DNA from: Elusimicrobiales bacterium
GTDB lineage: Bacteria > Elusimicrobiota > Elusimicrobia > Elusimicrobiales > UBA9959
Direction of reading: 5' to 3'
Assembly (NCBI GenBank): GCA_028713125.1
Contig: JAQTOU010000001.1
Coordinates: forward strand, 1-64,000
Length of the DNA stretch: 64,000 nt
The translations under genes were made by a program, and so were the position numbers. This document shows, piece by piece, positions 8,118-25,500 of this stretch (positions are counted from its first letter, which is position 1; each line of letters starts with the position of its first letter). The notes beneath the pieces were generated by a model that saw nothing but the letters and a program-made list of their open reading frames with translations, did not search any database and was not told where the DNA came from.

Positions 8118-8897
8118 ATGGATTTAATGACTATAATAGGTTTCGTGATGGGCGCGGCCGTCGTGACCTGGGGCGCCTTTTCCTCCGGCGTCGCCGGCAA
8201 TATCATTAACGCGCACGGCGTCGTGATAGTGCTGGGGGGCACGCTGGCTTCCACCTTCATCAATACCTCCTACAAGCGCTTCATGGCCGGGCTCAAGGCG
8301 CTCGCGGATATTTTCTCCGCGCCGAAGACACCTCCCATGGACGTTACGGTGCGGATGCTGGTCGGGATGGCCGAGACCGCGCAGAAGCAGGGCGGCATCA
8401 TGGCGCTTACGAACGCCGATCCGGCTTTCGCCGGCGGCTTCCTGAAGCGCGCGGTCAGCGTGGCCATGATCAGCGCCGAGTCCCGGGAGACCCGCGCCAT
8501 CCTGGAAGAGGAGATCCGCCTCCGGCGCCTGGACGTGTCCGAAGATTCAAACTTATACCGCACTATGGGAGTACTCTCCCCCATGTTCGGCCTTATCGGC
8601 ACGCTGTTCGGCATCATCCAGACCCTGAGCAATATCTCGGACCCCGCCGCGATCGGCCGCTCGATGGCCGTGGCCATCACTTCCGCCCTGTTCGGCATCG
8701 CGTTCTCGAATATGTTCTGTGTGCCGGTGGCCAACAAGATCCGCCTGCGCGCCATGGAGGAAACGCTCGTGCTCCAGCTTATCCTCGAAGGCGTGATAGA
8801 TATAATGTCCGGCAAGACCCCCCACCTGATAGAGATGCATTTGCGCGGCTACCAGTCGATGGAAGGCGTCAGGCACGGCGTTCCCGGCAAAGCTTAA
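8118..8897 (+). CDS. motA: MotA-type stator subunit (proton/ion channel)
   Basis: 259 residues, normal for MotA. Four membrane segments are visible, at about residues 1-22, 33-50, 150-170 and 181-203, with the large cytoplasmic loop between the second and third. The MotA_ExbB core is clear: TMGVLSPMFGLIGTLFGI carries the channel proline, and a second proline lies in CVPVANK. In flagella five MotA surround two MotB and push on FliG. The ribosome site TTGGAG precedes the ATG. MotB follows after 4 bases. Unlike ExbB or TolQ it has the long loop and MotA length, so MotA is preferred. The partner rotor is probably the FliF-FliG fusion at 15303-16742. Confidence 0.93.
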   Translation: MDLMTIIGFVMGAAVVTWGAFSSGVAGNIINAHGVVIVLGGTLASTFINTSYKRFMAGLKALADIFSAPKTPPMDVTVRMLVGMAETAQKQGGIMALTNADPAFAGGFLKRAVSVAMISAESRETRAILEEEIRLRRLDVSEDSNLYRTMGVLSPMFGLIGTLFGIIQTLSNISDPAAIGRSMAVAITSALFGIAFSNMFCVPVANKIRLRAMEETLVLQLILEGVIDIMSGKTPHLIEMHLRGYQSMEGVRHGVPGKA

Positions 8898-8901
8898 CCC
8901 T

Positions 8902-9528
8902 ATGCGCTACTACGAACGCGAAGACGAACTGGAGAACGAGCTCAACCGCGGCGCGCTGTGGGCCATCACCTATGGCGACATGATGAGCTACCTCATGATC
9001 TTCTTCATGATCCTGTTCGCCTTTTACAGCTCCAAGAAGATCGACACGCAGTTCAGCCAGAAAGCCATCGAGGAAACCTTCGGCAAGGACCAGTCCGTAG
9101 TAAGCACTCTTTTTTCGAAGAACGGGATCCAGCAGATAGCCCAGGTCGAGATCTCGGCCAACAAGATAAGCATAAACTTTTCGGACCCTATACTTTTCGA
9201 GCCGGGCAGCGACGTGCTTAAACCCTCTTCTTTCCCCCACCTCCACCGCCTTACCGCCGTCTTCAAGGACCTGCCCAACCCCATACAGATAGAGGGCCAC
9301 ACCGACAACCGCCCCCTGGGCCGCTCAATCCGCTTCAGGTCCAACTGGGAACTTTCTTCGGCCCGGGCTTTTTCCGTACTGCAGTTCTTCGTTAAAGAGG
9401 GGGTCGCCCCGGAGAAGCTTTCCGCCGTCGGCTACGGCGAGTTCGAGCCCGTAAGGTCCAACGATACCCCCGAGGGCCGCTCCGGCAACAGGCGCATAGA
9501 GATCAATATTATCAGGCATGAAATTTAA
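8902..9528 (+). CDS. motB: MotB-type stator subunit with OmpA peptidoglycan-binding domain
   Basis: 208 residues, shorter than the usual 250-310. A short cytoplasmic tail is followed by one membrane helix (about residues 18-42). The helix carries Asp26 in TYGDMMSYLMIFF, equivalent to the ion-carrying Asp32 of E. coli MotB. The C-terminal OmpA-like domain (about 95-205) has IQIEGHTDNRPL, NWELSSARA, VGYGEFEPV and NRRIEI, the residues that grip peptidoglycan. The linker between helix and OmpA domain is short, which may mean a compact plug region. It lies 4 bases after motA, with a sensor kinase gene 16 bases downstream on the same strand. Confidence 0.93.
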   Translation: MRYYEREDELENELNRGALWAITYGDMMSYLMIFFMILFAFYSSKKIDTQFSQKAIEETFGKDQSVVSTLFSKNGIQQIAQVEISANKISINFSDPILFEPGSDVLKPSSFPHLHRLTAVFKDLPNPIQIEGHTDNRPLGRSIRFRSNWELSSARAFSVLQFFVKEGVAPEKLSAVGYGEFEPVRSNDTPEGRSGNRRIEINIIRHEI

Positions 9529-9544
9529 GGCCTGACCCAATATC

Positions 9545-11683
9545 ATGAAGCTGACTACACGGTTCCTACTTATCCTCCTGGGCATAGCGGTGCTCCCGCT
9601 GCTGCTTTCCGTGGGTTGGAACGTCTACCAGTACAATTCCTCCGTGGCCAGCTACTTCGAGCTGCATAAGGGCCTCTCCGGGCTTTCGGCGGTGAACGTC
9701 GACGAGTGGTTCCTGACCACCAACCGCAGCCTGGCTTTCCTTTACGAGATCGAGAACCCGCTGCAGGCCAAAAAGCTGGACGAGGCCAAGGTGATCCAGC
9801 AGGCCGCCCGCATAAATTCCGACATCATGTCCCTGAGCCTGCTTTCCCAGGAAGGGAAGGAAGTCTTCTTCATCCAGAGCGACAAGGTCAGGGAAAAGAA
9901 GTCCCTTGCTTCCTTTGCCGTGGAGCTTTCCAGCCGGGCGCACGATTCCGGCATAGTTACCGCCGGGGACCCGGTCTGCGTGAAAGGCCAGGCTTTTTTC
10001 CCGCTGGCCTACCCGCTGGTGGACGGCCGCGTTGTTCTCTTCCATTTCGCTATGGACAAGCTGCTGGGCAAGATAAATTCCCAGCACGCCGGGCGCACCG
10101 GCCGGGTATTTATTTCCGACGGCCAGGGCCGCCCCCTCCCCTGCCAGGATATGAAGGGCCTGGACTACAAGCCGGCGGAGATGAAAAAAGCCTTCCATGC
10201 CGGCGGCCGGACCGGCACGCTGGCCAAATTCGAATTTTCCGGCGAGGAATATGCGGGCGCCTACGCGGCAATAGACAAGCTTGACTGGGCGGCGGTCTCG
10301 ATCCAGTCGGAGGATGAGCTCTACGGCAAGCAGCGCAAATCCATCCTGGTGTTCTCTCTGCTGGCCGTTGCCATTTTCGGCATAACCATGGTGGTGGTTT
10401 TCCTGATCTCCAACCGCATCATCGTCCCGATCAACAACATGGTCAACAGCGTCAAGGGCTTCCTGCGCACCCAGCACCTGGACCAGGTCATCGCCCAGCA
10501 GGGCTGGCCCGAGATCAGGGTGCTGGTGGGCGTCCTGAACCGCCTGATGCTCGAGCTGCAGGCCTACCGCGCCTTCCAGCTGAACCAGATCGTGGAAGAG
10601 AAGGGCAAGGCCCAGGCGCTCATCGATACCATTTCCGACGGCGTCGTCCTGGTGGACGACCGCGGCTCGCTCATCTATTCCAATAATACGGCCCTCAAGC
10701 TGCTTGGCATCCCGAAGATCTCTCCAGAGGTGGCGCTGCCGCGCTCCGTAAAGAACGAGGCTTTCTTCAAGGGCCTGACCGATATGATGGCGATAAAGGA
10801 GAAGTACCTGCGCGTGGAAATAGACGCCCCGGTCGAGACCGAAACTTCTACCGTGATGAAGAGCTTCCGCGTGATCTCCAACCAGTTCCTCCTCGCCACG
10901 CTCAAGCGCCCCGGGCGCGTCCTCATCATCCGCGACATCACCAGCGAGAAGGAGATCGAGAAGGCCAAGGAAGACTTCTTCCATATGATAACGCACGACA
11001 TGCGCGCGCCGCTTTCCACCCTGCAGGGCTATACCGAGCTCCTGATGAAGAAGATACCGTCTTCGCCATCCACGGACAAATATCTGACAAGCATGCTTTA
11101 CTCCTCGCGGCGCCTCCGCGGCATGATCGACGACATCCTCAATACCACCAAGCTTGAGCGCGGAAACATGACGCTCGGACTGGACCTTGTCGACGCGGGG
11201 GCGATAATAACCCGCGTGCGCGAGAACCACGAGCCGGTGGCCGGCCCGAAGAACATAAAGCTCTCTGTCGTGCTCCCGCCCTCGCCCATAATGGTCACCG
11301 CCGACCCGGGCCTGCTCGAGCGCGTCATCACCAATTTGATGGGCAACTCGCTCAAGTTCACCCCGGGCGGAGGCAGCATAATCCTTTCGACCTGGGAGAC
11401 CAAGGACGAGGTCTTCTTCGCGGTCGAGGACACCGGGCCCGGCATCCCGGAGAACAAGCGCAAAGAGATCTTCGAGAAATATTCGCAGATGGAAGAGCAC
11501 AAGAGCATGGGCTTCGGCCTGGGGCTCGCCATGTGCAAAATGACGGTGGAGCTGCATAAGGGAAATATCTGGGTGGAGTCCGAGGTGGGCAAAGGGAGCA
11601 AGTTCATCTTTACGGTCTCCAAGTCCATGGCCGTTCCGGCGCCGGCCGCGCCGCCGGCACCCCCTCCTCCCCCCGCGGCCTGA
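9545..11683 (+). CDS. Membrane sensor histidine kinase with HAMP and PAS domains
   Basis: 712 residues. A first membrane helix (about 5-28), an extracytoplasmic sensor of some 230 residues and a second helix (about 265-290) lead into HAMP, PAS (TISDGVVLVDDRGSLIYSN), HisKA and HATPase_c domains. The phospho-acceptor is His484 in HMITHDMRAPLSTL. The ATP lid is seen as NLMGNSLKFTPGGG, EDTGPGIPE and GFGLGLAMCK. The protein ends in an alanine/proline tail. It follows motB by 16 bases and precedes two single-domain receivers, so it probably signals to them and may control the motor. The sensed signal is unknown. Confidence 0.92.
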   Translation: MKLTTRFLLILLGIAVLPLLLSVGWNVYQYNSSVASYFELHKGLSGLSAVNVDEWFLTTNRSLAFLYEIENPLQAKKLDEAKVIQQAARINSDIMSLSLLSQEGKEVFFIQSDKVREKKSLASFAVELSSRAHDSGIVTAGDPVCVKGQAFFPLAYPLVDGRVVLFHFAMDKLLGKINSQHAGRTGRVFISDGQGRPLPCQDMKGLDYKPAEMKKAFHAGGRTGTLAKFEFSGEEYAGAYAAIDKLDWAAVSIQSEDELYGKQRKSILVFSLLAVAIFGITMVVVFLISNRIIVPINNMVNSVKGFLRTQHLDQVIAQQGWPEIRVLVGVLNRLMLELQAYRAFQLNQIVEEKGKAQALIDTISDGVVLVDDRGSLIYSNNTALKLLGIPKISPEVALPRSVKNEAFFKGLTDMMAIKEKYLRVEIDAPVETETSTVMKSFRVISNQFLLATLKRPGRVLIIRDITSEKEIEKAKEDFFHMITHDMRAPLSTLQGYTELLMKKIPSSPSTDKYLTSMLYSSRRLRGMIDDILNTTKLERGNMTLGLDLVDAGAIITRVRENHEPVAGPKNIKLSVVLPPSPIMVTADPGLLERVITNLMGNSLKFTPGGGSIILSTWETKDEVFFAVEDTGPGIPENKRKEIFEKYSQMEEHKSMGFGLGLAMCKMTVELHKGNIWVESEVGKGSKFIFTVSKSMAVPAPAAPPAPPPPPAA

Positions 11684-11709: not shown

Positions 11710-12099
11710 ATGGGACCTAAAACTAACCTGATGCTGATCGTTGACGATAACGTGGAGTTCCGCACCATGGTTTCCGATTACTTTACCGACCTCGGCTTTA
11801 CCGTGGAGATAGCCGGCGACGGCCGCGAGGGGCTGCTGAAAGCCAAGGCCATCCGCCCCGACATCATCCTGTGCGACGTTATGATGCCCGACATCGGAGG
11901 GATCGAGGTCCTGCGCAACCTGCAGACGGACGACGATACCCGCGATATCCCGGTCCTCGTGATAACGGGCAGCTTCTTCGATAAGAACATGAGCGAGCTT
12001 TTCAGGCAGGAATCCAACTGCCGCGAATTCATGAGCAAGACGGTGGAGCTTTCCTACCTGCAGAAGAAGGTGGAGGCCCTGGTCCCTAAAAAACCATGA
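11710..12099 (+). CDS. Single-domain response regulator (CheY-like)
   Basis: 129 residues, one receiver domain and no output domain. The acidic pair is Asp12/Asp13 (LIVDDN), the phospho-acceptor Asp56 (LCDVMMPD), and the switch Thr lies in VITGS. The conserved lysine fits MSKTVE near residue 113, though the usual K-P is K-T. Its stop overlaps the start of the next receiver gene by 4 bases (ATGA). In a MotAB setting such a CheY-size protein could bind the rotor, as CheY binds FliM or FliG-associated parts, but no FliM is visible, so its target is unknown. Confidence 0.9.
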   Translation: MGPKTNLMLIVDDNVEFRTMVSDYFTDLGFTVEIAGDGREGLLKAKAIRPDIILCDVMMPDIGGIEVLRNLQTDDDTRDIPVLVITGSFFDKNMSELFRQESNCREFMSKTVELSYLQKKVEALVPKKP

Positions 12100-12473
12100 C
12101 GCCCCGCCCTAAAGTTCTTATCGTCGACGACGAACCCGATTACCTGTCCATCGCCGCGCGCATCGCTGCCAAGGCGGGCTGCGCCGTGGTCACGGCCCCC
12201 CTCGCCCTCAAAGGGGTGGAGCTCGCCGAGAAAGAGAGGCCCTCGATGATACTCCTCGACGTAGGGCTGCCGGACATAAGCGGGTTCGAAGCCGCGCGCC
12301 GTATCCGCAAAGTTCCCGCCCTCGCCCGCACGCCTATAATTTTTTTTACGGTCCGCTCCGAACTGGATATGGTTTCCGAGGGTTTGAAGCTCGGCGCGGC
12401 CGGCTATGTCATAAAGCCCTTCGACCCTGACGAGCTGCTGGCCCGCATAAAGGCGGCTGTTTTTCCCGCATGA
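12096..12473 (+). CDS. Single-domain response regulator
   Basis: 125 residues, complete receiver with Asp11/Asp12 (LIVDDEPD), phospho-acceptor Asp55 (LLDVGLPDISG), switch Thr in FFTVRSE and the KPFD lysine motif. No output domain. It overlaps its neighbours by 4 bases on both sides, so three receiver genes are translationally coupled. The pair of adjacent CheY-size receivers suggests a relay or two output states from the kinase encoded upstream. Confidence 0.9.
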   Translation: MTPRPKVLIVDDEPDYLSIAARIAAKAGCAVVTAPLALKGVELAEKERPSMILLDVGLPDISGFEAARRIRKVPALARTPIIFFTVRSELDMVSEGLKLGAAGYVIKPFDPDELLARIKAAVFPA

Positions 12474-13150
12474 AACCCGGCGCCGACTGCGTAACTTCCA
12501 ACCCGCACATGGCGGACTTTTTAAAGTCCGCGTTGCCGGGCTTCCGCCTAAAATTCTACCCCTCGGCCGCAGCGTTCCTGAAATCGCCTCCTGCCAAAGG
12601 CCTGGTTGTTATAGATTCCTCCCTCCCTGATATGAGCGGGCGCGACCTGGTTTCGGTATTGCGCGGCGATAAGAAAACTTCCGGCCTGCTTCTGGTCCTT
12701 ACCGGCGGCGGCCCTTATTCCCCCGCCGCCGCTGCGCTGTCGCTGGAGAACGGGGCCGACGAATATTTCTCTTTCCCACCCGACGCGCGCCTTTTCAGCG
12801 CCCGCCTGCTGAACCTGCTCGCGCGTACGGGTCGCTCCGGGGATGCCCCCGTGAAGCCGGCGGAGTATCGTTTTGGCGCGCTTATTATTTCTCCCGAAGC
12901 CAGGACGGCTTCGGTCGGCGCGGCCCGGGTAAAGCTTACCGCGCTGGAGTTCGATCTGCTGCTCTATTTTCTTAAGAACCAGGGCAGGGTGGTTGCCCGC
13001 ACCGTTCTGCTCGAGCAGGTTTGGAAGCAGGGCCTCGAGGCCGGCCCGCGCGCTGTGGACAAGCGGATAGAGGCCCTGCGCTCCCGCCTGGGCAAATTCG
13101 GTTCGAAGATCAGGACGGTCTTCGGTTTAGGCTATATTTTTAAGATGTGA
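12470..13150 (+). CDS. OmpR-family winged-helix regulator with degenerate receiver
   Basis: 226 residues. The C-terminal part (about 130-226) is a typical OmpR/PhoB DNA-binding domain: KLTALEFDLLLYFLKNQGRVVAR, VWKQG, RAVDKRIEALRSRLG and the closing GLGYIF. The N-terminal receiver keeps the acceptor Asp49 (VVIDSSLPDMSG). It lacks the paired acidic residues at its start (CVTSNPHMADF) and the K-P motif (SFPPDA), so normal Mg-dependent phosphorylation is doubtful. It is the last gene of the motAB/kinase/receiver run; its ATG overlaps the previous stop. Likely a transcription factor controlled by some other input than phosphorylation. Confidence 0.88.
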   Translation: MKPGADCVTSNPHMADFLKSALPGFRLKFYPSAAAFLKSPPAKGLVVIDSSLPDMSGRDLVSVLRGDKKTSGLLLVLTGGGPYSPAAAALSLENGADEYFSFPPDARLFSARLLNLLARTGRSGDAPVKPAEYRFGALIISPEARTASVGAARVKLTALEFDLLLYFLKNQGRVVARTVLLEQVWKQGLEAGPRAVDKRIEALRSRLGKFGSKIRTVFGLGYIFKM

Positions 13151-13332: not shown

Positions 13333-15306
13333 TTACCCTGCCAGAGGGATCAAGACTTCCACTATCGCGCCGCGCTCTTTTTTGTTGGAAACTTCCAGCT
13401 TCCCGCCGTGCTTTTCCGCTATGCGGTGGGCTACGGCCAGGCCGATGCCGGCCTTCCCTTTTTCAGTGGTGTTGAACGGGGCGAAAAGCTTCGACAGCGC
13501 CTCCTGGGAGAAACCGGGCCCGCTGTCCTCGAAGCGTACCGAGGCGTAGCGCCCGTCTTCGGTGCTTTTCAGCGTGACGCGCAGGCTGCCGCCCTGCTGC
13601 AGGCGCTCGTAGGCGTTCTTTATCAGATGGTAGAAAAGGATCTTCATGCTCTCTGGCGCGAGGGGCGCGCGCAGGCGCGGGTTAAGTATCGCGGCCGAGA
13701 TAGTGATCTTCCGCTGTTTGAACGCCCTTTCCCAGGCGCCGACCTCGGCCGACACGAAACCGGCCAGTTCGGTATCCAGAAGCTCGGGAGCTTCGGGGTC
13801 CAGGTATTCCTGCCAGCCCTTCAGCAAATTGACCGAGGCCAGGAGGTTCTTCATGGCCGGCTCCAGGCTTTTGCGCTCGGCGGCCGGTATGCGCAGGTTG
13901 AAAGTTTTCAGGTCCTTGGCTGCCCTCTCGAGCGAAGTTATCATCCGCGAGTTAAAGTCCGTCTGCTCCCTTTTAAGGAAGCCGCTGAACTTGATGTTCT
14001 TGCGGCGGAGGTCCTCGTTCTCTATTTCCAGCTCTTCGATCTTTTTCAGGTCCGTCCTGAGCTTGTCGATCTGCAGGTCGCGGTCCTCGACGGCCTTCAG
14101 CACGCGCGCGGCGTAATCCGCGGCCGTGCTTATCTTCGTTTTAAGGGCGTCTATTTCTCCCTCTAGAGATTTTATTTTTATGCCGGCGCGCCGGGAGTTT
14201 TCTTTTTCGGCGGCCAGGCCGTTCTTGGCGTCGCGCAGCAGGCCGTTGACCTTTTCCATGTCCGCCTCGCGCCCCTTAAGTTCCTCGACATAGGAGGCGT
14301 TCTGCTCCTGGGCCTGGGTGAGCGCGCTCTTCAGGGCTGCGGCGCGCTTCTGCAGCTCGAAGACCTGGTTTACGGCGCCGCTGAAATTGGAGCGCTGCTC
14401 CTGCGCCTGCAGGGCGTGCTCGTCAGAAGCCTGGCGGAGTTTTTCCGCCGTAAATTTAGAGGCGTCCAGTTCGGCGCGCAGCGCGGCGCAGTCGGAGAGC
14501 GCGGTTTTCAAAGCGTTCTCTTTTTCCGAGAGGGCAGCGGCAAGGGCCGAGGCGCGGCCTTCCAGGGCGGCTTTCTCTTCGGCGGTAAGTTTTTCTTTTG
14601 AGACCGCCTGCGCCAGCGCCGTTTCGATGGCGGCCAGTTCCCGGCTTTTGCCGGCTAGCTCCTCGCGGAGGCCAGACAGCTCTTCCTCGGAGGCGGCCAG
14701 GGAGCCCTTAAATAAGTTTTCACGCGCGGACGCGGCCGCCAGCTCAGCCGCGGCGACCTCTGCGGCGCGCTTTCCTTTCTCTACCCGCTCCAGCAGGGCC
14801 TCATAGGCGGACGGCTGCTTCCCGGAGATCTCGGAGTCCTCCCTGAGCGCGCGGGCGAGCTCCGGCAGGGACATCAGGCCGGCTATCTTTTCCTTGAACG
14901 ATTCTATGGCCGCGTCGCGCGCCGACAAAGCTTCCCTGAGTCCTTCGGCCTCCGCCCGCAGGGCTGCAAGTTCCGCGCCGGCCAGGGCGCTTTCGCTTTC
15001 CTTTCTGATGAGCGAGGCCTTGATTTCGGCGGCCTCGCGGGCCTGCCGCGCGGCGAGCGCCAGGGTTTCGGCGTCCTTGTTTATGGAAATTTTCAGGCTT
15101 TCGGTTTCGGCCTTAAGGCGGCGCTCCCGCTCCGCGCTTTCGGCCAGCATCTTCTCGAGATGCAGCGCCTTAGCCGAGGTGTCGAGGAGGCCTTTCCGGG
15201 CGTCGGCGCGCTCGGCCTCGGAGCGGGCGGAGGCGTCCTGGGCCTCGCCTACAGCGCGCCAGAGATAGTCGAGCTCGGTGTTGAAAGCGTCGGAGGGCAG
15301 GCTCAC
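13333..15306 (-). CDS. Long coiled-coil protein with C-terminal histidine-kinase-type ATPase domain
   Basis: 657 residues. About 20-440 is heptad-rich coiled coil (long runs of A, E, K, L, R with almost no proline). Residues about 509-657 form a GHKL ATPase domain: HLIKNAYERL with Asn564, EDSGPGFS (594-598) and GIGLAVAHR near 620. The helical stretch before the ATPase domain (RMITSLERAAKDLKTF) lies where the dimerisation/phospho-acceptor helix should be but has no histidine, so this may not be an autophosphorylating kinase. No signal peptide or membrane helix is present. The GTG start overlaps the FliF-FliG stop by 4 bases (GTGA), so the two are co-translated. A cytoplasmic partner or regulator of the rotor is a reasonable guess. 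Confidence 0.82.
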   Translation of the reverse strand: MSLPSDAFNTELDYLWRAVGEAQDASARSEAERADARKGLLDTSAKALHLEKMLAESAERERRLKAETESLKISINKDAETLALAARQAREAAEIKASLIRKESESALAGAELAALRAEAEGLREALSARDAAIESFKEKIAGLMSLPELARALREDSEISGKQPSAYEALLERVEKGKRAAEVAAAELAAASARENLFKGSLAASEEELSGLREELAGKSRELAAIETALAQAVSKEKLTAEEKAALEGRASALAAALSEKENALKTALSDCAALRAELDASKFTAEKLRQASDEHALQAQEQRSNFSGAVNQVFELQKRAAALKSALTQAQEQNASYVEELKGREADMEKVNGLLRDAKNGLAAEKENSRRAGIKIKSLEGEIDALKTKISTAADYAARVLKAVEDRDLQIDKLRTDLKKIEELEIENEDLRRKNIKFSGFLKREQTDFNSRMITSLERAAKDLKTFNLRIPAAERKSLEPAMKNLLASVNLLKGWQEYLDPEAPELLDTELAGFVSAEVGAWERAFKQRKITISAAILNPRLRAPLAPESMKILFYHLIKNAYERLQQGGSLRVTLKSTEDGRYASVRFEDSGPGFSQEALSKLFAPFNTTEKGKAGIGLAVAHRIAEKHGGKLEVSNKKERGAIVEVLIPLAG

Positions 15307-16742
15307 GCCGCCTCCTTTATCACTATCCGGCCCTTGGAGTTCAGCTCTATCGCGGCCGAGATGATCTTGGCGCGCGCGATCATTATCTTCTCTTCCTCGG
15401 GCTTGTTCAGCATCATGTCCTTGACTATGATGCGGATATCCTCGGGCAGGAGCCTCGTGACATTGCCGACGGCGGTTTCGCCCGCCGCGGAGAGCGCGGC
15501 GGCCCAGTCTACGTAGGGCAGGGACACCACGAGCGGGCGCAGGTTCTTTTCGTCCAGGCGGCAGAGATCGTCAAAAGTAACCATCTTGCGGCGCAGTTCC
15601 TCGGAGCCTTTGGGGTTCGTGCGCGTAAGATTGTCCATTATTTCGGTGCGCTCGGCCTCGTTGACCAGCGAGAGCAGGCGGCCCAGCTTTTCCGCGCCCT
15701 TCAGGCTTTTTTCGAGCTTCAGGCGCAGGTCGTTCTCTATCTCGTAGACTTTTTCAGGGTCGGCCTGCTTGAGGCCGAGCAGCTGGGCGGAGACCGCCTG
15801 TTTTTTAGCCGGGGCGAGCGCCAGCAGTATTTTGGAAGAGATGTGCGGCTTGCGGTCCGCCATATTGGCGATGATTATGGCCGCGTCTTCCTCCGGCATA
15901 TCCGAAAGAAGGTCCGCGGCCTCTTCGGGCGGGAGCTTTTCCATGAATTCAAAAGCCGACCCCGCCGTCAGCATTGCGCTGCCCGAGGCGGCGCGCGATT
16001 CCACGTCTATCACGTTGCCGAACTCATCCTCCTCGGTGCCTTCGCCTCCGGGGCCCATCGCCCCCCCTCCGGTGGTGGTGACGTTCGTGGAAGAGGGCGC
16101 GTTGATGCGGGCATAATCGACGAACCCGCTTAGAAGCTTGGAGGCCAGGATATACCCGAAGATAAGCAGCACGGCAAGGGCCAGGGCTCCGAAGGCCGAG
16201 GCGATAAGTACGGGGCGTATCTCCGGGGCTTCAAGGGTGCTTTTCCACCAGGGGAGCATTTCGGACCTTTCGGCGATGATGCTGTCTCCGCGGGCTTCGC
16301 TAAGGCGCAGGACCGCGGAGACCATCAGCTTTATGGCGTTGACGCGTGTTTCGGGCACGCTCCTGTCGAAGACGAGGGAGACGGAGAGCTTCTTTACACG
16401 GAATTCGCTGGTGCGCTGGCTTTCTTCGCGCTGCTGCTTGAGGTACTGGCCGGTCTTCTCCAGGATGTTGACGGAGGCGTAGCCGGGCAGGGTGAGGGTG
16501 TCTTCGGCGGGGGCGCCGGACTCGCTCTTGCCCTTGAGGACGATCTCCCCCTCTACGGAGACGAAGGAGCGGGCGCGGCCGCGGCCGACCAGCTGCTCGA
16601 GCAGGCGGGAGACGTCTTCCTGCATGCGGGTGGAGATCTCGGCGGCCTGCGCGCTGGGCGAGCCGACGGGAACGTCCTGCGCCTGCGCGCCAAGGGCGAG
16701 GCAGAGGATAGAAAGTGTGATGAGACGTGAAATTAGTTTCAT
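15303..16742 (-). CDS. FliF-FliG fusion: truncated MS-ring protein joined to rotor switch domains
   Basis: 479 residues. A signal peptide (1-21) is followed by a periplasmic segment (about 35-172) that matches the last ring-building part of FliF: SRLLEQLVGRGRARSFVSVEG, then VKKLSVSLVFDRSVPE and SEARGDSIIAERS. A membrane helix (about 177-201) fits FliF's second helix. A glycine-rich linker (215-262) leads to FliG: the middle domain (LPPEEAADLLSDMPEEDAA; residues 330-390) and C-terminal domain (VTFDDLCRLDEKNL to the end, KGRIVI). FliF's first helix and first two ring domains are absent, as is FliG's N-terminal FliF-binding domain, which a covalent fusion would make unnecessary. Not part of a flagellar operon; MotA/MotB lie 6 kb away. 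Confidence 0.85.
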   Translation of the reverse strand: MKLISRLITLSILCLALGAQAQDVPVGSPSAQAAEISTRMQEDVSRLLEQLVGRGRARSFVSVEGEIVLKGKSESGAPAEDTLTLPGYASVNILEKTGQYLKQQREESQRTSEFRVKKLSVSLVFDRSVPETRVNAIKLMVSAVLRLSEARGDSIIAERSEMLPWWKSTLEAPEIRPVLIASAFGALALAVLLIFGYILASKLLSGFVDYARINAPSSTNVTTTGGGAMGPGGEGTEEDEFGNVIDVESRAASGSAMLTAGSAFEFMEKLPPEEAADLLSDMPEEDAAIIIANMADRKPHISSKILLALAPAKKQAVSAQLLGLKQADPEKVYEIENDLRLKLEKSLKGAEKLGRLLSLVNEAERTEIMDNLTRTNPKGSEELRRKMVTFDDLCRLDEKNLRPLVVSLPYVDWAAALSAAGETAVGNVTRLLPEDIRIIVKDMMLNKPEEEKIMIARAKIISAAIELNSKGRIVIKEAA

Positions 16743-17007: not shown

Positions 17008-18339
17008 TTACGTCGCTGTCTCTTCAACTTTAATAGGGATCTCGACCCAGAAGAGGGCGCCGCCGCCGGGGACGGTGGAGCAGCCTATGGTGCCTTTGTG
17101 CAATTCTGTTATGGATTTTGCGAGGGCGAGGCCGAGGCCGGTGCCTCCGTGGCCGGGGGCGGCGGAGCCCTGGGCGAAGGGAGCGAATAGCTTTTCGGTT
17201 TCGCCGGGCTTCAGGCCGGGGCCGGTGTCCTCCACTTCTGCGCGGTATTTACCGCCTGAGACGGAGGCGCGCACGGAGACTTTGCCGCCGGGCGGAGTAA
17301 ATTTTATGGCGTTAGAGAGAAGGTTCGTGAGGGCATGTGTGATCAGTTCCCTGTCCAGCATCGCGCTGCCGGTTCCCTCCGCCTGTATGGAAAGCGAAAC
17401 CCCCCTCTCCTCCGCTTTCGGGCGCAGGAAACCGGCGGCGTCGCGCGTGAGGGCCAGCGGGTCTTCTCGCGCGGGGCGGAGCTCCATCTTCCCGCGCTCT
17501 ATTTTCGCCAGGTCCAGCATGGCGGTGACGAAATTGGCGAGGCGGCCCGCGTTCTCTTTTATCCGGCGGAAAACCTCGAGGTCTTCGGCCCTGAAATTCT
17601 CTTTTTCCTTAAGCAGCAGGGCCGCGTAGGTCTCTATCACTCCCAGCGGCGAGCGGAGTTCGTGCGTGACCGAGGCGGTGAAATTTTTCTTCATCGTCTC
17701 CAGTTCCAGCAGCTTGTCCGACATGGCGTTCAAAGCGCCTGCCAGCTCCGCGACTTCGTCCGAGCCGGAGGAGTCCGTCTTTACGCCGAATTTTCCCTCC
17801 CCTACCTCGGCCGCCTCGGCGGCCAGGCGGCGAAGGCGCCGCGTCAGGCGGCGCGCAAGCAGGAGCCCGATTAAAGCGGCCGCGGCCATGGAGGCCAGGA
17901 AGGCCGCCGCCAGGTCATGCCAGACGCCCGAGAGCGCAGCGCGCCGCTCCCTCTCCAGGGCTTCAGAGGAATAGTTTATCAGCGCCGAAAACTTCCTGCC
18001 GCGTATTTCCCGGGGCAGCCGGATGCCCGGCCCGGGCCTGTTGCGCCTGGCCGGAGTTTTTACAAGGCCCATCCCGCGCCCGATATCCAGCCGGCAGGAG
18101 TCTATTTCGGCCCTGGAGGAGCAGAGGCCGGAAAGATAATCCACGGCCATCAGGGGGTCGCCGGCCAGTTCCGCCTCGCCCAGCATGGCGGCTACGGATT
18201 GATCCAGCGCCGAGAGGCGGGCCTCCTGCGCCTGCCGCACGGTGCGGTTCTGGAAACTGAAGAAGATAGCGGAGAGCAGCAGGGCCGCCGCGAGGGCGGC
18301 GGCCATCAGCGCCGCGCTTAACTTATGGAAAAGCCTCAT
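17008..18339 (-). CDS. Membrane sensor histidine kinase
   Basis: 443 residues. A membrane helix at about 8-28, a short extracytoplasmic loop of some 115 residues, a second helix (about 144-162), a HAMP segment (to about 215), HisKA with His226 in SVTHELRSPLG, and HATPase_c with NLLSNAIKFTPPGG (Asn343), EDTGPGLKPG and GGTGLGLALAK. It lies 23 bases after the PorV-like barrel gene on the same strand and upstream of FliF-FliG. No receiver gene is adjacent on this strand; the receivers at 11.7-13.2 kb are possible partners. Confidence 0.92.
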   Translation of the reverse strand: MRLFHKLSAALMAAALAAALLLSAIFFSFQNRTVRQAQEARLSALDQSVAAMLGEAELAGDPLMAVDYLSGLCSSRAEIDSCRLDIGRGMGLVKTPARRNRPGPGIRLPREIRGRKFSALINYSSEALERERRAALSGVWHDLAAAFLASMAAAALIGLLLARRLTRRLRRLAAEAAEVGEGKFGVKTDSSGSDEVAELAGALNAMSDKLLELETMKKNFTASVTHELRSPLGVIETYAALLLKEKENFRAEDLEVFRRIKENAGRLANFVTAMLDLAKIERGKMELRPAREDPLALTRDAAGFLRPKAEERGVSLSIQAEGTGSAMLDRELITHALTNLLSNAIKFTPPGGKVSVRASVSGGKYRAEVEDTGPGLKPGETEKLFAPFAQGSAAPGHGGTGLGLALAKSITELHKGTIGCSTVPGGGALFWVEIPIKVEETAT

Positions 18340-18362: not shown

Positions 18363-20339
18363 TTAGCGCGAGAGCCTGATTATGCGCTCCAGGGCTTTTT
18401 TAGCCTGCGTGTTCTGGGGGTCCTTGGTAAGTATCTTGCGGAAGGCGTCGGCGGCCTTGCCGTATTCCCCCTTGGCGTAGAAGTCGGCGCCGGACTGGTA
18501 GATCTTCTCTATTTCCCGCGCGTCGGCGGCGGCCTTGGAGACGGGAGCTTCTTCCTCGACCGCGCCGCGGGCCTGGACCGAGCCGGGCTCCCAGGCGCCG
18601 GCCTTGCCGCCCAGCTTGGCGCGGGCTTCGTCCACCATCTTGCCCACCTTGGCTTTTTCAAGGGGGTCGGGCTCCAGCTTGAAAGCCAGCTCCCAGTCGC
18701 GGCCGGCACGGGCGTAGTTCCCGAGCATGTAGTTGCAGGAGCCGCTTTTCTTGAGGGCCATCAAATTGTTCGGCTCGAGCTCCAGCAGCTCTTCCAGCTT
18801 GCGCAGGGCCTCCGAGTGTTTCTTCTTAACGTAGAAATCATCCGATTCCGTCATCTTGTATTCGGCCCAGCCGCGGCTGAAATCCGCCGGGACCCTGTCG
18901 GCGGTGACGCGCGTGAGCTCCGCCGCGCGGTCCAGGAAGTTGGAGAGGGCGGAGTCCTGCTGGTTGAGGCTCTGGGCGTAGGCCAGCTGCTTCATGGCGC
19001 GCATATCGTTGCCGTTTATGAAATTCCTGACTCCGCCGGAGAGCAGCTCCTCCCAGTACTGTTTCCGCCGGTCCTCCACGGCCAGCGTAGGGAAGAAGGC
19101 GGCCACGGTAGAGAGGCGCCGCGTAAGCGTTACCACCGAGGAGTCCGGCAGCATCTCGTTGGCTTTTTCAAGCAGGAGCTTGTTGGCGGCGTAATAATTC
19201 TCTTTAGCCACCTGCTCTTTGACTTCCGCGAGGCGCGGGTCGTTCAGGCTGGCGGTGTCGCGCGGGCTCTTGTAATCCTGCGCCTCGCGCAGCCGCTTGT
19301 ACTGGTCGAGGAGCTCGGTCTCGGCCAGCTCGGTCTGCGTCGCCGTGCCGAAGTGGTAGGTAAGCGCCAGCTTGTGGTTGCCGGAGGTGTCCTTTACCGT
19401 GCCTATGGGCAGGCAAAAGCCATAGTCGAACTGTATCTTCTGGATCTTGTAGGAAAGGCCAAGAGTGGCCTGCTTGAATTCCCTGTCGCCGGCGCCAAGG
19501 GAGGCGCGCACCCCGATATCCCCCTTGTCCAGGCTAGGGAAGATCTTTTCGGCCGCGAAGACGACCTGCTTGTCCATCTTGCCGTCAGGCGCCTTCTGGA
19601 GGCGGGCGTCGGCCGCCAGGACCATCCAGAGGGCTTTGTAGGAAGCTCCCAGCCTGGTCTTCATCGGTATCTTGTCCTTGTCAGAACTGCTGAAGGCTAC
19701 ATCTGCCTGCATGGCGTTCAGGACAGCCGCGCCCAGGGTCCAGCGGCGCGTTATCCTGTAGAGCACCCCGACGTCGGCGTCGAGGGCCGATTTGGTATTC
19801 AGGCCGGCCAGCACGGGGTCGGTGGCGTTCCTCTGCATTATATCGTCTTCGACCGCGTTGAAGGTTTCCCCCAGGCGGGTAAAGCCGTGGTTGAGGTACT
19901 TGAGCGAGCCGCCGACGGAGAACTTCTCGTATTTAGTATTCTTCGGGAAGCGGTACCCCCATGAAACCTGGCCGGTCTGCTCATAATAGACCCCGGAAAG
20001 AGAAAACTGGTTCCAGGAAACGCCCAGCGTGCCGTTGCGCCCGCTGGTTATGGGAACGGCCAGGGCGACCGCGCTGAGCCCGAGGTTGGAGCCGTCGCTC
20101 AGCCCGGTGTAGAAGAGAGAGTGCGAGGCCAGAACTTTGGGGCGCTCAAGGCTGGACAGCCCGGCCGGGTTGTAATAGATAGAGGAAATATCGTCCGCGA
20201 CCCCGGTGAAGGCGTCGCCCATCCCGGGCGCCCGGGCCCCGAACCCCAGGTCCTCGAAAGCGGCGAAAGCGGCCAGCGGGGCGAAAGCGATGATCGCCGC
20301 CAGGGCCGCCGCCGCTTTTTTCTCTTTATAACAAGTCAT
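18363..20339 (-). CDS. PorV/UPF0164-like outer-membrane barrel with C-terminal TPR region
   Basis: 658 residues. A signal peptide (about 1-26, ending AAFA) is followed by FEDLGFGARAPGMGDAFTGVADD and ISSIYYNPAGLSSL, the hallmark of PorV/PorQ and UPF0164 outer-membrane barrels. Alternating hydrophobic strands continue to about residue 330. The C-terminal half is helical with TPR-like units (LELEPNNLMALKKSGSCNYM, LGNYARAGRDWELAFKLEP, then GEYGKAADAFRKILTKDP). PorV is the outer-membrane shuttle of the type IX secretion system in Bacteroidota. Two nearby proteins end in a shared sorting-like tail, so a type IX-like role is possible, but the TPR extension is unlike PorV. Confidence 0.78.
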   Translation of the reverse strand: MTCYKEKKAAAALAAIIAFAPLAAFAAFEDLGFGARAPGMGDAFTGVADDISSIYYNPAGLSSLERPKVLASHSLFYTGLSDGSNLGLSAVALAVPITSGRNGTLGVSWNQFSLSGVYYEQTGQVSWGYRFPKNTKYEKFSVGGSLKYLNHGFTRLGETFNAVEDDIMQRNATDPVLAGLNTKSALDADVGVLYRITRRWTLGAAVLNAMQADVAFSSSDKDKIPMKTRLGASYKALWMVLAADARLQKAPDGKMDKQVVFAAEKIFPSLDKGDIGVRASLGAGDREFKQATLGLSYKIQKIQFDYGFCLPIGTVKDTSGNHKLALTYHFGTATQTELAETELLDQYKRLREAQDYKSPRDTASLNDPRLAEVKEQVAKENYYAANKLLLEKANEMLPDSSVVTLTRRLSTVAAFFPTLAVEDRRKQYWEELLSGGVRNFINGNDMRAMKQLAYAQSLNQQDSALSNFLDRAAELTRVTADRVPADFSRGWAEYKMTESDDFYVKKKHSEALRKLEELLELEPNNLMALKKSGSCNYMLGNYARAGRDWELAFKLEPDPLEKAKVGKMVDEARAKLGGKAGAWEPGSVQARGAVEEEAPVSKAAADAREIEKIYQSGADFYAKGEYGKAADAFRKILTKDPQNTQAKKALERIIRLSR

Positions 20340-20377: not shown

Positions 20378-20782
20378 TTATCTTATTACTACTATGGTTC
20401 CCTTAAAGACCCTTGTTTCCATCCGGACCTGGTAGATATAGACCCCACCCGGTTTATGGCCGCCGGAGTTGGGATCCCATTCCAGGTCATAATATATGCC
20501 GGCGACAGCTACGGTGATGGAAGCGCCGGTCCCTTCGGAGCGCTGCTTCAGGCGCATCGTTCCGACTTCTCTGCCGGAGAGGTCGTACACCCTGCCCTCT
20601 ACGGCATAGTCGCGCGGGTTATAGCAGCGGAAGATGAAGGTGTCGTTCCTGTTATCGCCGTTGGGCGTGATAAATTTATTCACGGCTATGGAGGGGCCCA
20701 GCGCTGACGACGCGCAGAAAACAGCCGCGGGCGGGAGCGCCAGGGCGGCCAGGAGGAACAGGATGATGTTCTTTGCCTTCAT
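20378..20782 (-). CDS. Small secreted protein with FlgD/CHU_C-like C-terminal sorting domain
   Basis: 134 residues. A signal peptide (1-23, ending FCA) is followed by nothing but an Ig-like domain of the FlgD/gliding-associated C-terminal type: KFITPNGDNRNDTFIF, then VEGRVYDLSGREVG, and PGGVYIYQVRMETRVFKGTIVVIR at the end. The same domain and the same last residues (GT-I/V-VVIR) close the protein at 20902-22521, which is divergently transcribed. A protein that is only a sorting domain is unusual. No Shine-Dalgarno precedes the ATG; TAGAAT lies 10 bases upstream. It precedes the PorV-like gene by 39 bases. Confidence 0.72.
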   Translation of the reverse strand: MKAKNIILFLLAALALPPAAVFCASSALGPSIAVNKFITPNGDNRNDTFIFRCYNPRDYAVEGRVYDLSGREVGTMRLKQRSEGTGASITVAVAGIYYDLEWDPNSGGHKPGGVYIYQVRMETRVFKGTIVVIR

Positions 20783-20889
20783 AACTTATTCAATTCTACT
20801 TTTCAATTGTGACTGTTTTGTTTCATAGTTATGGATTTTACGGCGGAAGCCGGAAACCTCTTTGTAATATTTTGGTCGCACGGTACGTA

Positions 20890-20895
20890 TATAAT
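20890..20895 (+). promoter_or_regulatory. -10 element directly before a GTG start (leaderless candidate)
   Basis: TATAAT ends 6 bases before the GTG at 20902, so transcription should begin at or next to the start codon. No good -35 at 16-18 bases is seen (TTGGTC at 20872 is only 12 bases away). No Shine-Dalgarno sequence exists between the -10 and the start. Confidence 0.4.
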
Positions 20896-20901
20896 TTAAC
20901 T

Positions 20902-22521
20902 GTGAACGCGAACCGCACCTCTTGCGCCCTTCTTTTTCTGGGGGCCTTCTTCTGGGCCATAACCGGGCTTCATGCCGCGCGTATGGCCTCGGCCAGCTTT
21001 TTGGACGTGAACGGGGTCTATGCTTACGGCTCGGGGTATATGACCTCTCCGAATTATGAGCAGAGCGTGAACGTCCAGGAAGTCGCCGTCTCGACGCAGG
21101 AGGCGGCAAGCTTCTCCCAGCGCAGCGGCAAACTTTCTTTTTACCCCTTCCCGGCTTCGGTTTACGACCTCCAGCCGGTCATAGTTTCCAGCCATGGCAT
21201 CAGCATAACCTGGACCGCGCCCTCCGCCGATATCGGCCGCCAGGCCGAAGCCGTGGAAAACTACAGCCTGCGCTATACCAGCTCGGGCTTTATCAGCACG
21301 GACGAGGGATTCGAAAGCGCGCCGTCCTACGCCCAGACCTGGACGCCGCTCGCGCCGGGTTCGGCGGAAGGCCGGATAGTCGAGGGCTTCAACCCCGGCA
21401 CTACTTACTATTTCTCCCTCGAGACCATTAACAGCCACGGGCTCCGCTCCGAACTTTCCAACCCGGCCGCGGCCTTCGCGCTGGTTCCGCTTTCGCCGAT
21501 GAATTTCCAGCTGACCCGCGCGGGAAATTCCGTCACTATGACCTGGGTTTCCCCGGCCGGCTTCCAGAGCCGGATCCCGTTCAACAACCGCTTCAGCCCT
21601 TCCTACCCGTACGAGATAAAAAAATACGAGGTATACAGGGCCACCGCCCCGGCCGACGCCGAGTGGGCGTTCATAGGCGAAACCTCCTCGGACACCCTCA
21701 CCTGGACCGACATCCTGGGGGCGGACGAATCCTTTTATTACCACGCGCGCGCCGTCAACCAGGCCGGCGTTTCCATCCCGTCCTACGCGCGCGCCAGCGC
21801 CGGCGGCGGGCTGTATTTCCTGGCCCCGGACAACAAGAGCATACTGGAGATCCCGGCCGACGCAACCGGTGATTTCTTCTCGGCGTCCGCGGACCCGATG
21901 GACTCGTACAGCATAGAGATCTCCACCCACCCCGAGGACCTTGGCGGCAGGGTCGTGAAGTCGGTGGAGTTCTCCGCTTTCCGCGGCGGCCTGCAGCCGG
22001 CCACCGACTTCAAGCTCTCGAAGAACGGCGCGCTCAAGCTCTATTATGCCAAGTCGGGAGGCGTCATTTCCCCTTCCGCGTCAACCGATGAGAAGACCCT
22101 GAGCATGTATTTCAACAATGGCGCGCGCTGGATGCAGCTGTACGGCGATGTGAACTCTGCCGAGCACAGCGTCACCCTGGAGACCCGGCTTCTCGGCCGG
22201 TACCAGCTGCGCACCACCGAGCGCGGGGGCAGCTTCTCCGCCGATAAGGCCGGCCTTACCAACCGCCTTATCACGCCAAATGGCGACAATAAAAATGATA
22301 CCATGGTCTTTGTTTTCGACAACCCGCAGGACAAGAAAGTGACCGGGAAGATCTACGATATGCGCGGGGCGCTGGTGGGCTCGATGAAGGCCGGCCCGGT
22401 CGGCAACTCTCTGATCTGGGACGCCAAGGCCGGCGGGCTGGCGGTGCCGGGCGGAGTTTATATTTATCAGATAGAGGCGGAAGGTACGGTGTATAACGGG
22501 ACAGTGGTCGTAATACGGTAG
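20902..22521 (+). CDS. Secreted surface protein with fibronectin type III domains and C-terminal sorting domain
   Basis: 539 residues from the GTG at 20902, which gives a good signal peptide (ALLFLGAFFWAITGLHAA). An ATG at 20809 would place a 31-residue non-signal tail in front. Two FN3-like units are seen at about 85-195 (SHGISITWTAP, PGTTYYFSLETINSHGLRS) and 195-300 (GNSVTMTWVSP, YHARAVNQAG). A middle beta-rich region follows. The end (about 453-539) is the FlgD/CHU_C-type domain with LITPNGDNKNDTMVF, GGVYIYQIEAEG and the final GTVVVIR. Likely exported and held on the cell surface. The start choice is uncertain. Confidence 0.72.
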   Translation: MNANRTSCALLFLGAFFWAITGLHAARMASASFLDVNGVYAYGSGYMTSPNYEQSVNVQEVAVSTQEAASFSQRSGKLSFYPFPASVYDLQPVIVSSHGISITWTAPSADIGRQAEAVENYSLRYTSSGFISTDEGFESAPSYAQTWTPLAPGSAEGRIVEGFNPGTTYYFSLETINSHGLRSELSNPAAAFALVPLSPMNFQLTRAGNSVTMTWVSPAGFQSRIPFNNRFSPSYPYEIKKYEVYRATAPADAEWAFIGETSSDTLTWTDILGADESFYYHARAVNQAGVSIPSYARASAGGGLYFLAPDNKSILEIPADATGDFFSASADPMDSYSIEISTHPEDLGGRVVKSVEFSAFRGGLQPATDFKLSKNGALKLYYAKSGGVISPSASTDEKTLSMYFNNGARWMQLYGDVNSAEHSVTLETRLLGRYQLRTTERGGSFSADKAGLTNRLITPNGDNKNDTMVFVFDNPQDKKVTGKIYDMRGALVGSMKAGPVGNSLIWDAKAGGLAVPGGVYIYQIEAEGTVYNGTVVVIR

Positions 22522-22540: not shown

Positions 22541-25500
22541 ATGAGAAACGCTTACGGCATTAATGAGATCGGGAAAAGGTCCTGGAAAGCTTCCTGTTTC
22601 AGGCTCTTCGCCCTGCTTTCCCTCCTCCTCCATCCTTCCTTCTTCTCTCTCGCGGCCCATGCCGCGATCACGCAGTCTATAAACTACCAGGGCTTCCTGC
22701 TCAGCAAGATCACGAATATGCCGGTGGAGACGCCGCAGGATATAAAATTCATAATTTACAACACCCCCGTTGGTCCTGCTACGGGCGGGATGGTGCCCTT
22801 TACCGAAAGCCGCTGCAATGTAAAGGTCAGCAAGGGGCGCTATGACGTCGAGATAGGCTCCGCCACGCCCGGAGGGATCCCTCCCGCTCTTTTTACCGAC
22901 TACAGCGCGCTGTGGCTGGAGATCCAGGTGGACAGCGACGGGGACTGCTCAGGAACCTATGAAGCCATGTCCCCCCGCGTCAGACTGCAGGCTTCGCCTT
23001 ACGCTTTTAATTCTATTTACGCTTCCACGGCTTCTATAGCCACTTCGACTTTCAGCGTGAACATTATCGGCGCTTTGCCCAATACGACCAACGGCGCGGT
23101 GACGATCTCCACCAACCTCTTCGTCATGGGCGGCATTTCGGTGGGAGATATCACGCCCGGCTCTAAGCTTTCGGTGAAAGGCATGGTGGAGAGCAGAGGC
23201 GACCTGCCTGGCTGCGCCGACCCGGCGAACTATACCTGCGGGTTCAAATTCCCGGACGGCTCTGTCCAGGTAAAAGCTGCGGCTCTTACCATGTGGGACG
23301 TGACCGGAGATAACCTGCACACGATAAACCCGGGGAACGCGGGGATAGGCGACACGGGCGTGGGCAATCCCCTGCTTATCCCGCAGGCGCGCCTGCATGT
23401 GTCCTCGGGTACCAGCGCCGCGACTACCATCGGCAACCTGCTGCTGGTTACGGCGGGCAGCGACGAGATCTTCCGCGTGGCCAGCAACGGCGGAACGGGC
23501 GAGGTGCACGGCGGCTCCTACTACGGCGACGGGACCACTCTTACCGGCATAGTGCGTAAAGCCGGCGACACGATGACCGGCCTTCTTACTGTGACCAGCG
23601 TAACGGCTACTTCCGCCCAGGGCGTGACTTCCCCCAAATTCAAGCTGCTCGATAACGTGGAAATATCCTCGGCCCCGGCTTCCGCCTACGGCGGTATCCG
23701 GGTGAGCACGCACATCTATATTGCGCCCTCTTCCATAATTTACGGAGACGGCAGCGGCCTTATCAATGTGACCAGCCTTCCGGACAGCACCAAGGTCTTG
23801 AAAGTCGGCGACGTCATGTCCGGGCCTCTCTCCGGGATCACCTCTTTAACAGCCTCCTCCGCCACCATAACCGGCAGCGCCTTTTCGGTGTCCGGCTCCA
23901 CCACTTTTTCCGTCCTGAACGGCAATACCGCGGTGGGGACCGGCACGCACCTGGCGCGCCTGACCGTGGGAGGAGGAATAATAGCTTCTTCAAGCGTTAC
24001 CGCTAACGGCGGCCTCTTTACTACAACAGTTACGGCTACCAGGGCGGATTTCACCGGGCAGGTGGCCGCCCTGGACATCCTTGCGTCCACCGCCACTTTC
24101 AGAGCCTGGGCCGGGCCCGACATGAACAACAGCTACAGCATAACCACGGCAAGCGGAATCAAGGTAACCGCGGGCGTCGTGTTCTCTTCCTACGGGTTCA
24201 TAGGCGACGGCTCCGGCCTTTGGAACGTAAGCGGCACGGACTCCAGCCGCCTCCTGAGAACGGGAGACACTATAACCGGCCACCTGCTTATAGCCAATTC
24301 CAGCTTCACCATACTGCCAAGCGATCAGAACCCGTACGCGGTCCGCGTTCTAAACCCGGCCTCCAACGATAATTACCTCCTGGCGGTGAGCACCGGCGGA
24401 AATATGGGCGTAATGCTCCCTAACACAAAACTTGCCGACGACCTTATAACAATTGTCCCCAGGTACCCGGCGGCGCCGCTTGAGGTGAACAGGGATATTC
24501 TAATTTCCAATTCCGACCTCGTAAATGCGCGCGCCCAGCTGCATCTTATGGCTACAGCCGGGGACAATTTCATTCATTGGAGCGACCCGAACTTCGGCAA
24601 CCTCGGCGCTCTGGGCTACCAGGGCGGCGTGCCGGATCTCGTATACAGGGCGATGGGCTCAGACCCTTTAAGCGGGGGCCAGGAGGTCTTCCGCATCGGG
24701 CTGGCGGCATTCAGCTCTGACCCCACTACCTGGAATTTCGGAATAGGTACGACCGGATCCGGACAGGCATTTGAGAAATTCCATGTGATGACCAATATGC
24801 TGGTCAGCACTAATACGGCTACTCAATTTTCTTCCGATCCCACTAAAGTGAATCCCATCCTTTATGTAAGCACTACTTCCGGAGGGGTTTCGATAAGAAC
24901 TCTTGCCCAGACGCATGCGCTTACTGTTAACGGCGGGATTAACGCTATTTCCTCCATAACAGCTGAGGGCGGATATTATGGGAACCAGAGCGGGGTGGTA
25001 ACCGTAACGGGAAATGAAATCCAGCTTGAAGGCAAAACCGCGATGGGGGCAGGAAGCATCGTGATGCCGGACTCGGAGGTATACGTGGCTGAGGATGCGG
25101 GCCTGGACTTTAGTTTTGCCGTGGGCAATAACGCTTTTAACAGCTATGATTTTGCCGTCTCAGCCGGGGGGCGGGTCGGGATAGGCCTCAATAAATTAGT
25201 GGCGGCAACGCCCTCTAATAGTTTGCAGGTGATGGACTCGATAAGAATTGGCGCCGACGGGTACGGGGACAGTGAAGCTTATCTCTATTTACGACCCAAC
25301 TTTGGCCCCAGCTATATAGTCTGGAGTGAAAATGTCGGAGCTAATTTCCTAAAAGGCGCATTGGGCTTCGCGTCCGGCTCCAATGATCTGGTTTACAAAG
25401 CCGGAGCCACCGATATGGGCAATGGTTATGAGGTTTTTAAGGTGGCCGGCCCCTCTAATCCCAGCGGTCCGGGGGACTTCGCATCCTGGAAATTCGGCAT

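Follow-up and report, generated by a model that had tools for sequence, protein, structure and literature searches.

We analyzed a stretch of 64,000 nucleotides from an Elusimicrobiales bacterium (the window). A gene on its minus strand (15303–16742) encodes a protein of 479 amino acids that joins the RBM3 domain of FliF, a membrane helix, and the middle (M) and C-terminal domains of FliG. The gene overlaps by 4 bases with that for a long protein with a C-terminal HATPase domain (13333–15306, minus strand). On its other side, also on the minus strand, are a HAMP histidine kinase (17008–18339), an outer-membrane barrel of the PorP/SprF-PorV type with a C-terminal TPR domain, which is a probable carrier (18363–20339), and a short secreted protein with CHU_C, a type IX sorting domain (20378–20782). 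Two plus-strand genes follow, for a secreted fn3 protein with a CHU_C domain (20809–22521) and for a large exported-looking protein without any Pfam match (22541–26167).

The genes for a putative stator are on the plus strand: a MotA-like subunit (8118–8897) and a MotB-like subunit with the plug/TM region and an OmpA peptidoglycan-binding domain (8902–9528). Pfam bears out the first-pass annotation on this pair. Next come a histidine kinase (9545–11683; Cache, PAS, HisKA, and HATPase domains) and three plus-strand genes whose products we read from sequence: two receiver-domain-like proteins (11710–12099 and 12096–12473) and a response-regulator-like protein with a winged-helix-like C-terminus (12470–13150). 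Both kinases, these three proteins, and the large exported-looking protein are conserved neighbors.

To describe this conservation, we use 34 loci of the window's type from one scan of named genomes (with titles Elusimicrobiota, Elusimicrobia, or Elusimicrobiales, or just "bacterium"). The PorP/TPR barrel gene is present at 29 of the 34, MotA at 24, and MotB at 25, so the same fusion does lie beside motAB in relatives. Many of the loci that lack MotA/MotB or the barrel are short contigs. Two loci (L120 and L121) have neither MotA nor MotB in the available flank, and at another locus of the window's type (L075), MotA and MotB are absent from their usual place while the rest is kept. Across all of the full-length fusions that we examined, nearly all adjoin MotA/MotB and a PorV or PorP/SprF-like barrel with TPR. 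The first-pass annotation took the fusion to be a reduced rotor driven by the MotAB at 8118–9528. Its pairing with MotAB is supported by synteny in most of the orthologous loci with enough flank; rotation remains an inference.

FliF and FliG domains in one protein

The architecture of the fusion is confirmed: a signal peptide, the RBM3/collar of FliF, a membrane helix, a glycine-rich linker, and the middle and C-terminal domains of FliG. Pfam finds FliG_C at residues 371–475 (E = 2.8e-12), FliG_M from residue 267 (E = 1e-5), and YscJ_FliF_C at 95–155 (E = 1.7e-4; at 22.5 bits, this is just below the 23.8-bit cut-off). When a profile of 14 orthologues was compared to PDB sequences, residues 263–478 matched a structure of the FliG middle and C-terminal domains (1lkv, E = 6.7e-28), and the FliF half had no match. 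We also ran hhalign with the FliF half against two FliF sequences. In the global alignment, it aligned to residues 230–478 of E. coli FliF with a probability of 88.7; the local alignment comprised 31 columns only.

The AlphaFold2 model, which was built from 27 sequences, has a mean pLDDT of 71.6 and a pTM of 0.35. Its domain order is reliable, but the packing of the domains is not. Modelled residues 27–162 match the RBM3/collar of FliF (8z5v_A: Z = 13.4, rmsd 2.0 over 93 residues; 7bk0_B: Z = 13.5, rmsd 3.1 over 102 residues), residues 262–344 match the FliG middle domain (4fq0_C: Z = 12.3, rmsd 1.7 over 80 residues), and residues 387–473 match the FliG C domain (1qc7_B: Z = 11.6, rmsd 1.7 over 87 residues). 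Besides the N-terminus, the fusion has one other hydrophobic stretch, at about 174–209. Residues 1 to about 21 look like a signal peptide ending in AQA (as judged by eye, without a predictor).

Thus, Pfam, the PDB profile search, and the AlphaFold2 model agree on the predicted FliF and FliG domains. This confirms the domain order that the first-pass annotation had read in the protein, including the absence of FliF's RBM1 and RBM2 and of FliG's N-terminal domain. Each half matches the family it was assigned to, with the FliF half just under the Pfam cut-off but with a fold match at Z of 13, and all three expected folds were recovered by structure prediction.

In the window's stator, the ion-path residues are kept: the MotB residue that aligns to Asp32 of E. 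coli is Asp, and the MotA residues that align to Pro173 and Pro222 are Pro. In most sets, the primary MotB retains this aspartate as well. The residues for torque contact are another matter. At the positions of E. coli FliG K264, R281, D289, and R297, the fusion has other residues (D288 is kept), and R90 and E98 of E. coli MotA align to Q and T. This alignment is uncertain because the helices are divergent. With the charged FliG/MotA contacts of E. coli mostly changed in the window's family, the two proteins cannot meet as they do in E. coli, and torque, if any, needs other contacts. At three other loci (L006:6673-7326, L038:14552-15178, and L040:11660-12328), a MotB-like protein is paired with a second MotB, and the residue aligned to Asp32 is Gly or Ala. 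Judging from these sequences, a mixed MotB dimer is possible.

Flagellar families, paralogues, and spread across the phylum

The window's genome (3.48 Mb in 39 contigs) does not seem to encode a flagellum. Profile searches of the whole genome found no match for the export gate FlhA, for FliM/FliN of the switch ring (at E ≤ 0.001), for YscJ_FliF (RBM1/RBM2 of FliF), or for the rod/hook family Flg_bb_rod. Each of these searches was positive in four flagellated control genomes; flagellin was outside the families searched. The first-pass annotation had stated that the window has no other flagellar genes. For the four families, this now extends to the whole genome, although the window's ORFs were not checked singly. 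An earlier survey of the phylum also noted that flagellar genes were absent (PMC7031533).

Among 295 sampled Elusimicrobiota genomes, 121 match the fusion's profile, and the listed genomes without a match include many of 1.2–1.7 Mb. FlhA is found in 3 of the 295, and FliM/N is above the cut-off in the same 3. Two of these three genomes also match the fusion's profile; one of these two matches may be an ordinary FliG. One FlhA-bearing genome (G246, at L079:4867-6770) has a FliF of 383 amino acids in which only YscJ_FliF matched and a FliG of 248 amino acids in which the N and M domains matched but the C domain did not; an assembly error is not excluded for either.

The window's genome encodes three further FliG-like proteins, on contigs C35, C15, and C26, which makes four paralogues. 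The N-terminal regions of the C35 and C15 paralogues align with the FliF part of the fusion (YscJ_FliF_C has a match at 1.8e-4 in the C15 paralogue and none listed in the C35 paralogue). In the C26 paralogue, only a membrane helix precedes FliG. In a tree of 37 proteins, whose root is arbitrary, the window's type forms one group, as does the C35 type; the C15-type proteins require two changes. At another locus, two tandem proteins of 89 amino acids (L054:8042-8591) are encoded just upstream of a fusion and match only stretch 280–362 of the profile, around the FliG middle domain.

The gene order in operons of the C35 type is a large secreted protein, PorV-TPR, the fusion, a coiled-coil protein, FlbD, MotA, and MotB. 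(FlbD, at L005:14044-14400 in the C35 operon, belongs to a family of small proteins whose name refers to flagellar and swarming motility.) In operons of the C15 type, a large protein is followed by PorV-TPR, the fusion, MotA, and MotB, and frequently by another MotB-like gene. MotA is directly 3' of the fusion gene in several paralogue types. Just upstream of the C35 and C15 operons are the ends of two giant open frames, of 14,446 and 6,824 codons, and the parts of these frames that we scanned with Pfam contain bacterial Ig-like domains. The longer frame is a single ORF (C35:225866-269206, across L132-L133-L005) with no repeated 12-residue words. The four paralogues and their spread across the phylum go beyond the first-pass annotation, as do the fusion's place among type IX-like secretion genes and the partial precedent in Chlamydiaceae described below.

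Type IX-like secretion genes near the proposed rotor

Giant proteins with C-termini for type IX secretion are often near the fusion loci. In the window's genome, there are 20 matches to Por_Secre_tail, 15 of which are marked as above the cut-off. For five of the 20, a rotor gene is no more than 10 kb away (binomial p of about 1e-4, from a simple count that ignores clustering). The window's barrel gene (18363–20339) matches PorP_SprF at 42 bits, above the cut-off, and at the genome's other paralogue loci, PorV_fam is above its cut-off. The model of the window's barrel protein (mean pLDDT of 75.5) has a barrel and then a helical repeat domain. Among many other porin-like barrels, Foldseek matched this model to one chain (8gl6_F) from a complex for type 9 secretion. 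A search for GldM gave no match, and the control genomes all stayed below the cut-off as well.

The genome also encodes an SprA-like protein of 1801 codons (C15:291594-296834). The SprA_N Pfam has no match in this genome, not even in the SprA-like copy itself, which we recognized by its 49% identity to a relative's protein that does pass the SprA_N cut-off. SprA-like proteins are found in 256 of the 295 genomes from the phylum, and many of these genomes lack the fusion, so that export system can do without the rotor. We also considered that the rotor might be the general motor for type IX secretion, and we disfavor this for the same reason.

A proposed rotary motor and its relation to known systems

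In flagella, RBM3 of FliF forms the S-ring, and the middle and C-terminal domains of FliG carry the torque. The S-ring-forming domain, the membrane helix, the torque domains of FliG, the adjacent MotAB with intact ion-path residues, and the absence of the flagellar families tested all led us to read the fusion as a rotor, and this part of our proposal is well supported. What the motor does is inferred from the gene neighborhood. On balance, and without any experiment, we lean towards a flagellum-independent rotary motor that is coupled to a type IX-like carrier of surface proteins, with gliding as its most likely output. The RBM3 domains would form a ring in the periplasm, with the FliG part facing the cytoplasm, and MotAB would turn this ring using a gradient of protons or sodium ions (no rotation has been measured). 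The periplasmic ring would act via the TPR domain of the neighboring PorP/PorV-like barrel, for which the only basis is gene order and probable topology. This carrier barrel would then move a surface protein that is exported by the type IX-like system. If the surface proteins are adhesins, then their movement would be a form of gliding, analogous to that of Bacteroidota. Control of the motor would fall to the histidine kinases and response regulators encoded next to it. Points against this proposal are the altered FliG/MotA contacts, the few loci without MotA and MotB nearby or at their usual place, and the absence of FliM/N, which leaves no known switch.

Chemotaxis genes bear on the output. 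The fusion is found in 27 of 32 genomes with CheW and in 94 of 263 others (Fisher p = 1.4e-7, without correction for kinship or genome size). Also, at one locus (L057:496-6846), CheB and CheW (both from Pfam), along with what look like CheR and chemoreceptor genes, adjoin a fusion and MotA. The enrichment and this locus favor movement, yet CheW is absent from 94 of the 121 genomes with the fusion. This absence would fit with a motor that powers the export of particular type IX substrates, with one motor for each substrate and its carrier, rather than cell movement. Such a role also fits with our finding that each operon examined tends to carry a separate PorV/PorP-like gene together with a large secreted protein of its own, and in Bacteroidota, one energy chain is common to export and gliding. 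The many SprA-bearing genomes without the fusion imply that general export runs without it, but this does not exclude a dedicated use. We consider a dedicated export motor to be unlikely but still a serious candidate.

Alternatively, the fusion might be a static membrane ring or scaffold, with MotAB acting on something else, as other MotAB-type motors do. The altered contact residues are compatible with this, as is a FliF-FliG fusion from Chlamydiaceae, in a bacterium that is not thought to be flagellated. However, the FliG C domain is kept throughout the phylum, MotA directly follows the fusion gene in several paralogue types, and the MotB aspartate is retained in most sets. A static role thus seems improbable to us. 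Finally, we reject a functionless remnant of a lost flagellum: FliF and FliG are only partly left, and FlhA and FliM/N do occur in three of the sampled genomes, but the fusions are full-length, with conserved domains and synteny across distant families and with several paralogues per genome, the window's type and the C35 type are recovered as separate clades, and our search of this genome for four flagellar families found no normal flagellar set of which the fusion could be a decayed copy.

Returning to the proposed surface-protein motor, the recurrence of the fusion across the phylum, beside genes for a motor and for giant cell-surface proteins, suggests that a flagellar-type motor now serves another purpose, which may be gliding. 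More tentatively, Elusimicrobiota might have a class of rotary machine that has not been described before. In this reading, MotAB would turn a flagellar rotor reduced to the point of having no filament, rod, switch ring, or export gate, and each cell would have several such rotors, each coupled to its type IX-like carriers and dedicated to driving a different giant surface protein. We can see this as possible, and we would not yet rely on it. If it is correct, then the torque module of the flagellum works without a flagellum and has been joined to an unrelated outer-membrane apparatus. This would bear on the evolution of rotary machines, provide a natural minimal rotor to study, and give a testable hypothesis for motility in Elusimicrobiota.

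How do these systems compare to known ones? They share with the flagellar motor the RBM3/collar of FliF, the middle and C domains of FliG, and the MotA and MotB families. They differ in that FliF and FliG are covalently fused, RBM1 and RBM2 are missing, there is no FliG N domain at its place, and the FliM/N, FlhA, and rod/hook families were not found in this genome. A natural FliF-FliG fusion is already known, from Chlamydiaceae, with homology to the M region of FliG only (Bergeron 2016, PMC4768692). Going by that description (we did not compare the chlamydial sequence), the fusion described here differs in having the C domain of FliG and an adjacent MotAB. In the open-licence papers searched, we found no description of a FliF-FliG fusion from Elusimicrobiota, or of a form with the FliG C domain and MotAB, although a prior report elsewhere is not excluded. 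Engineered FliF-FliG fusions have the covalent link as well: those of Salmonella still assemble and rotate (as cited in PMC4768692), and one from Vibrio forms MS-rings (PMC11481574). Those fusions join full-length proteins, in flagellated bacteria.

The other point of comparison is the type IX secretion and gliding machinery of Bacteroidota (SprA, SprF, SprB, and GldKLMN). There, type B substrates remain bound to their own PorP-like carriers, and SprB/SprF power gliding. Both systems have PorV/PorP-like barrels, C-terminal domains for type IX secretion, an SprA-like protein, and an ion-driven motor, which in Elusimicrobiota is inferred. In Elusimicrobiota, however, the motor families are FliF-FliG and MotAB, and the carrier has a TPR domain.
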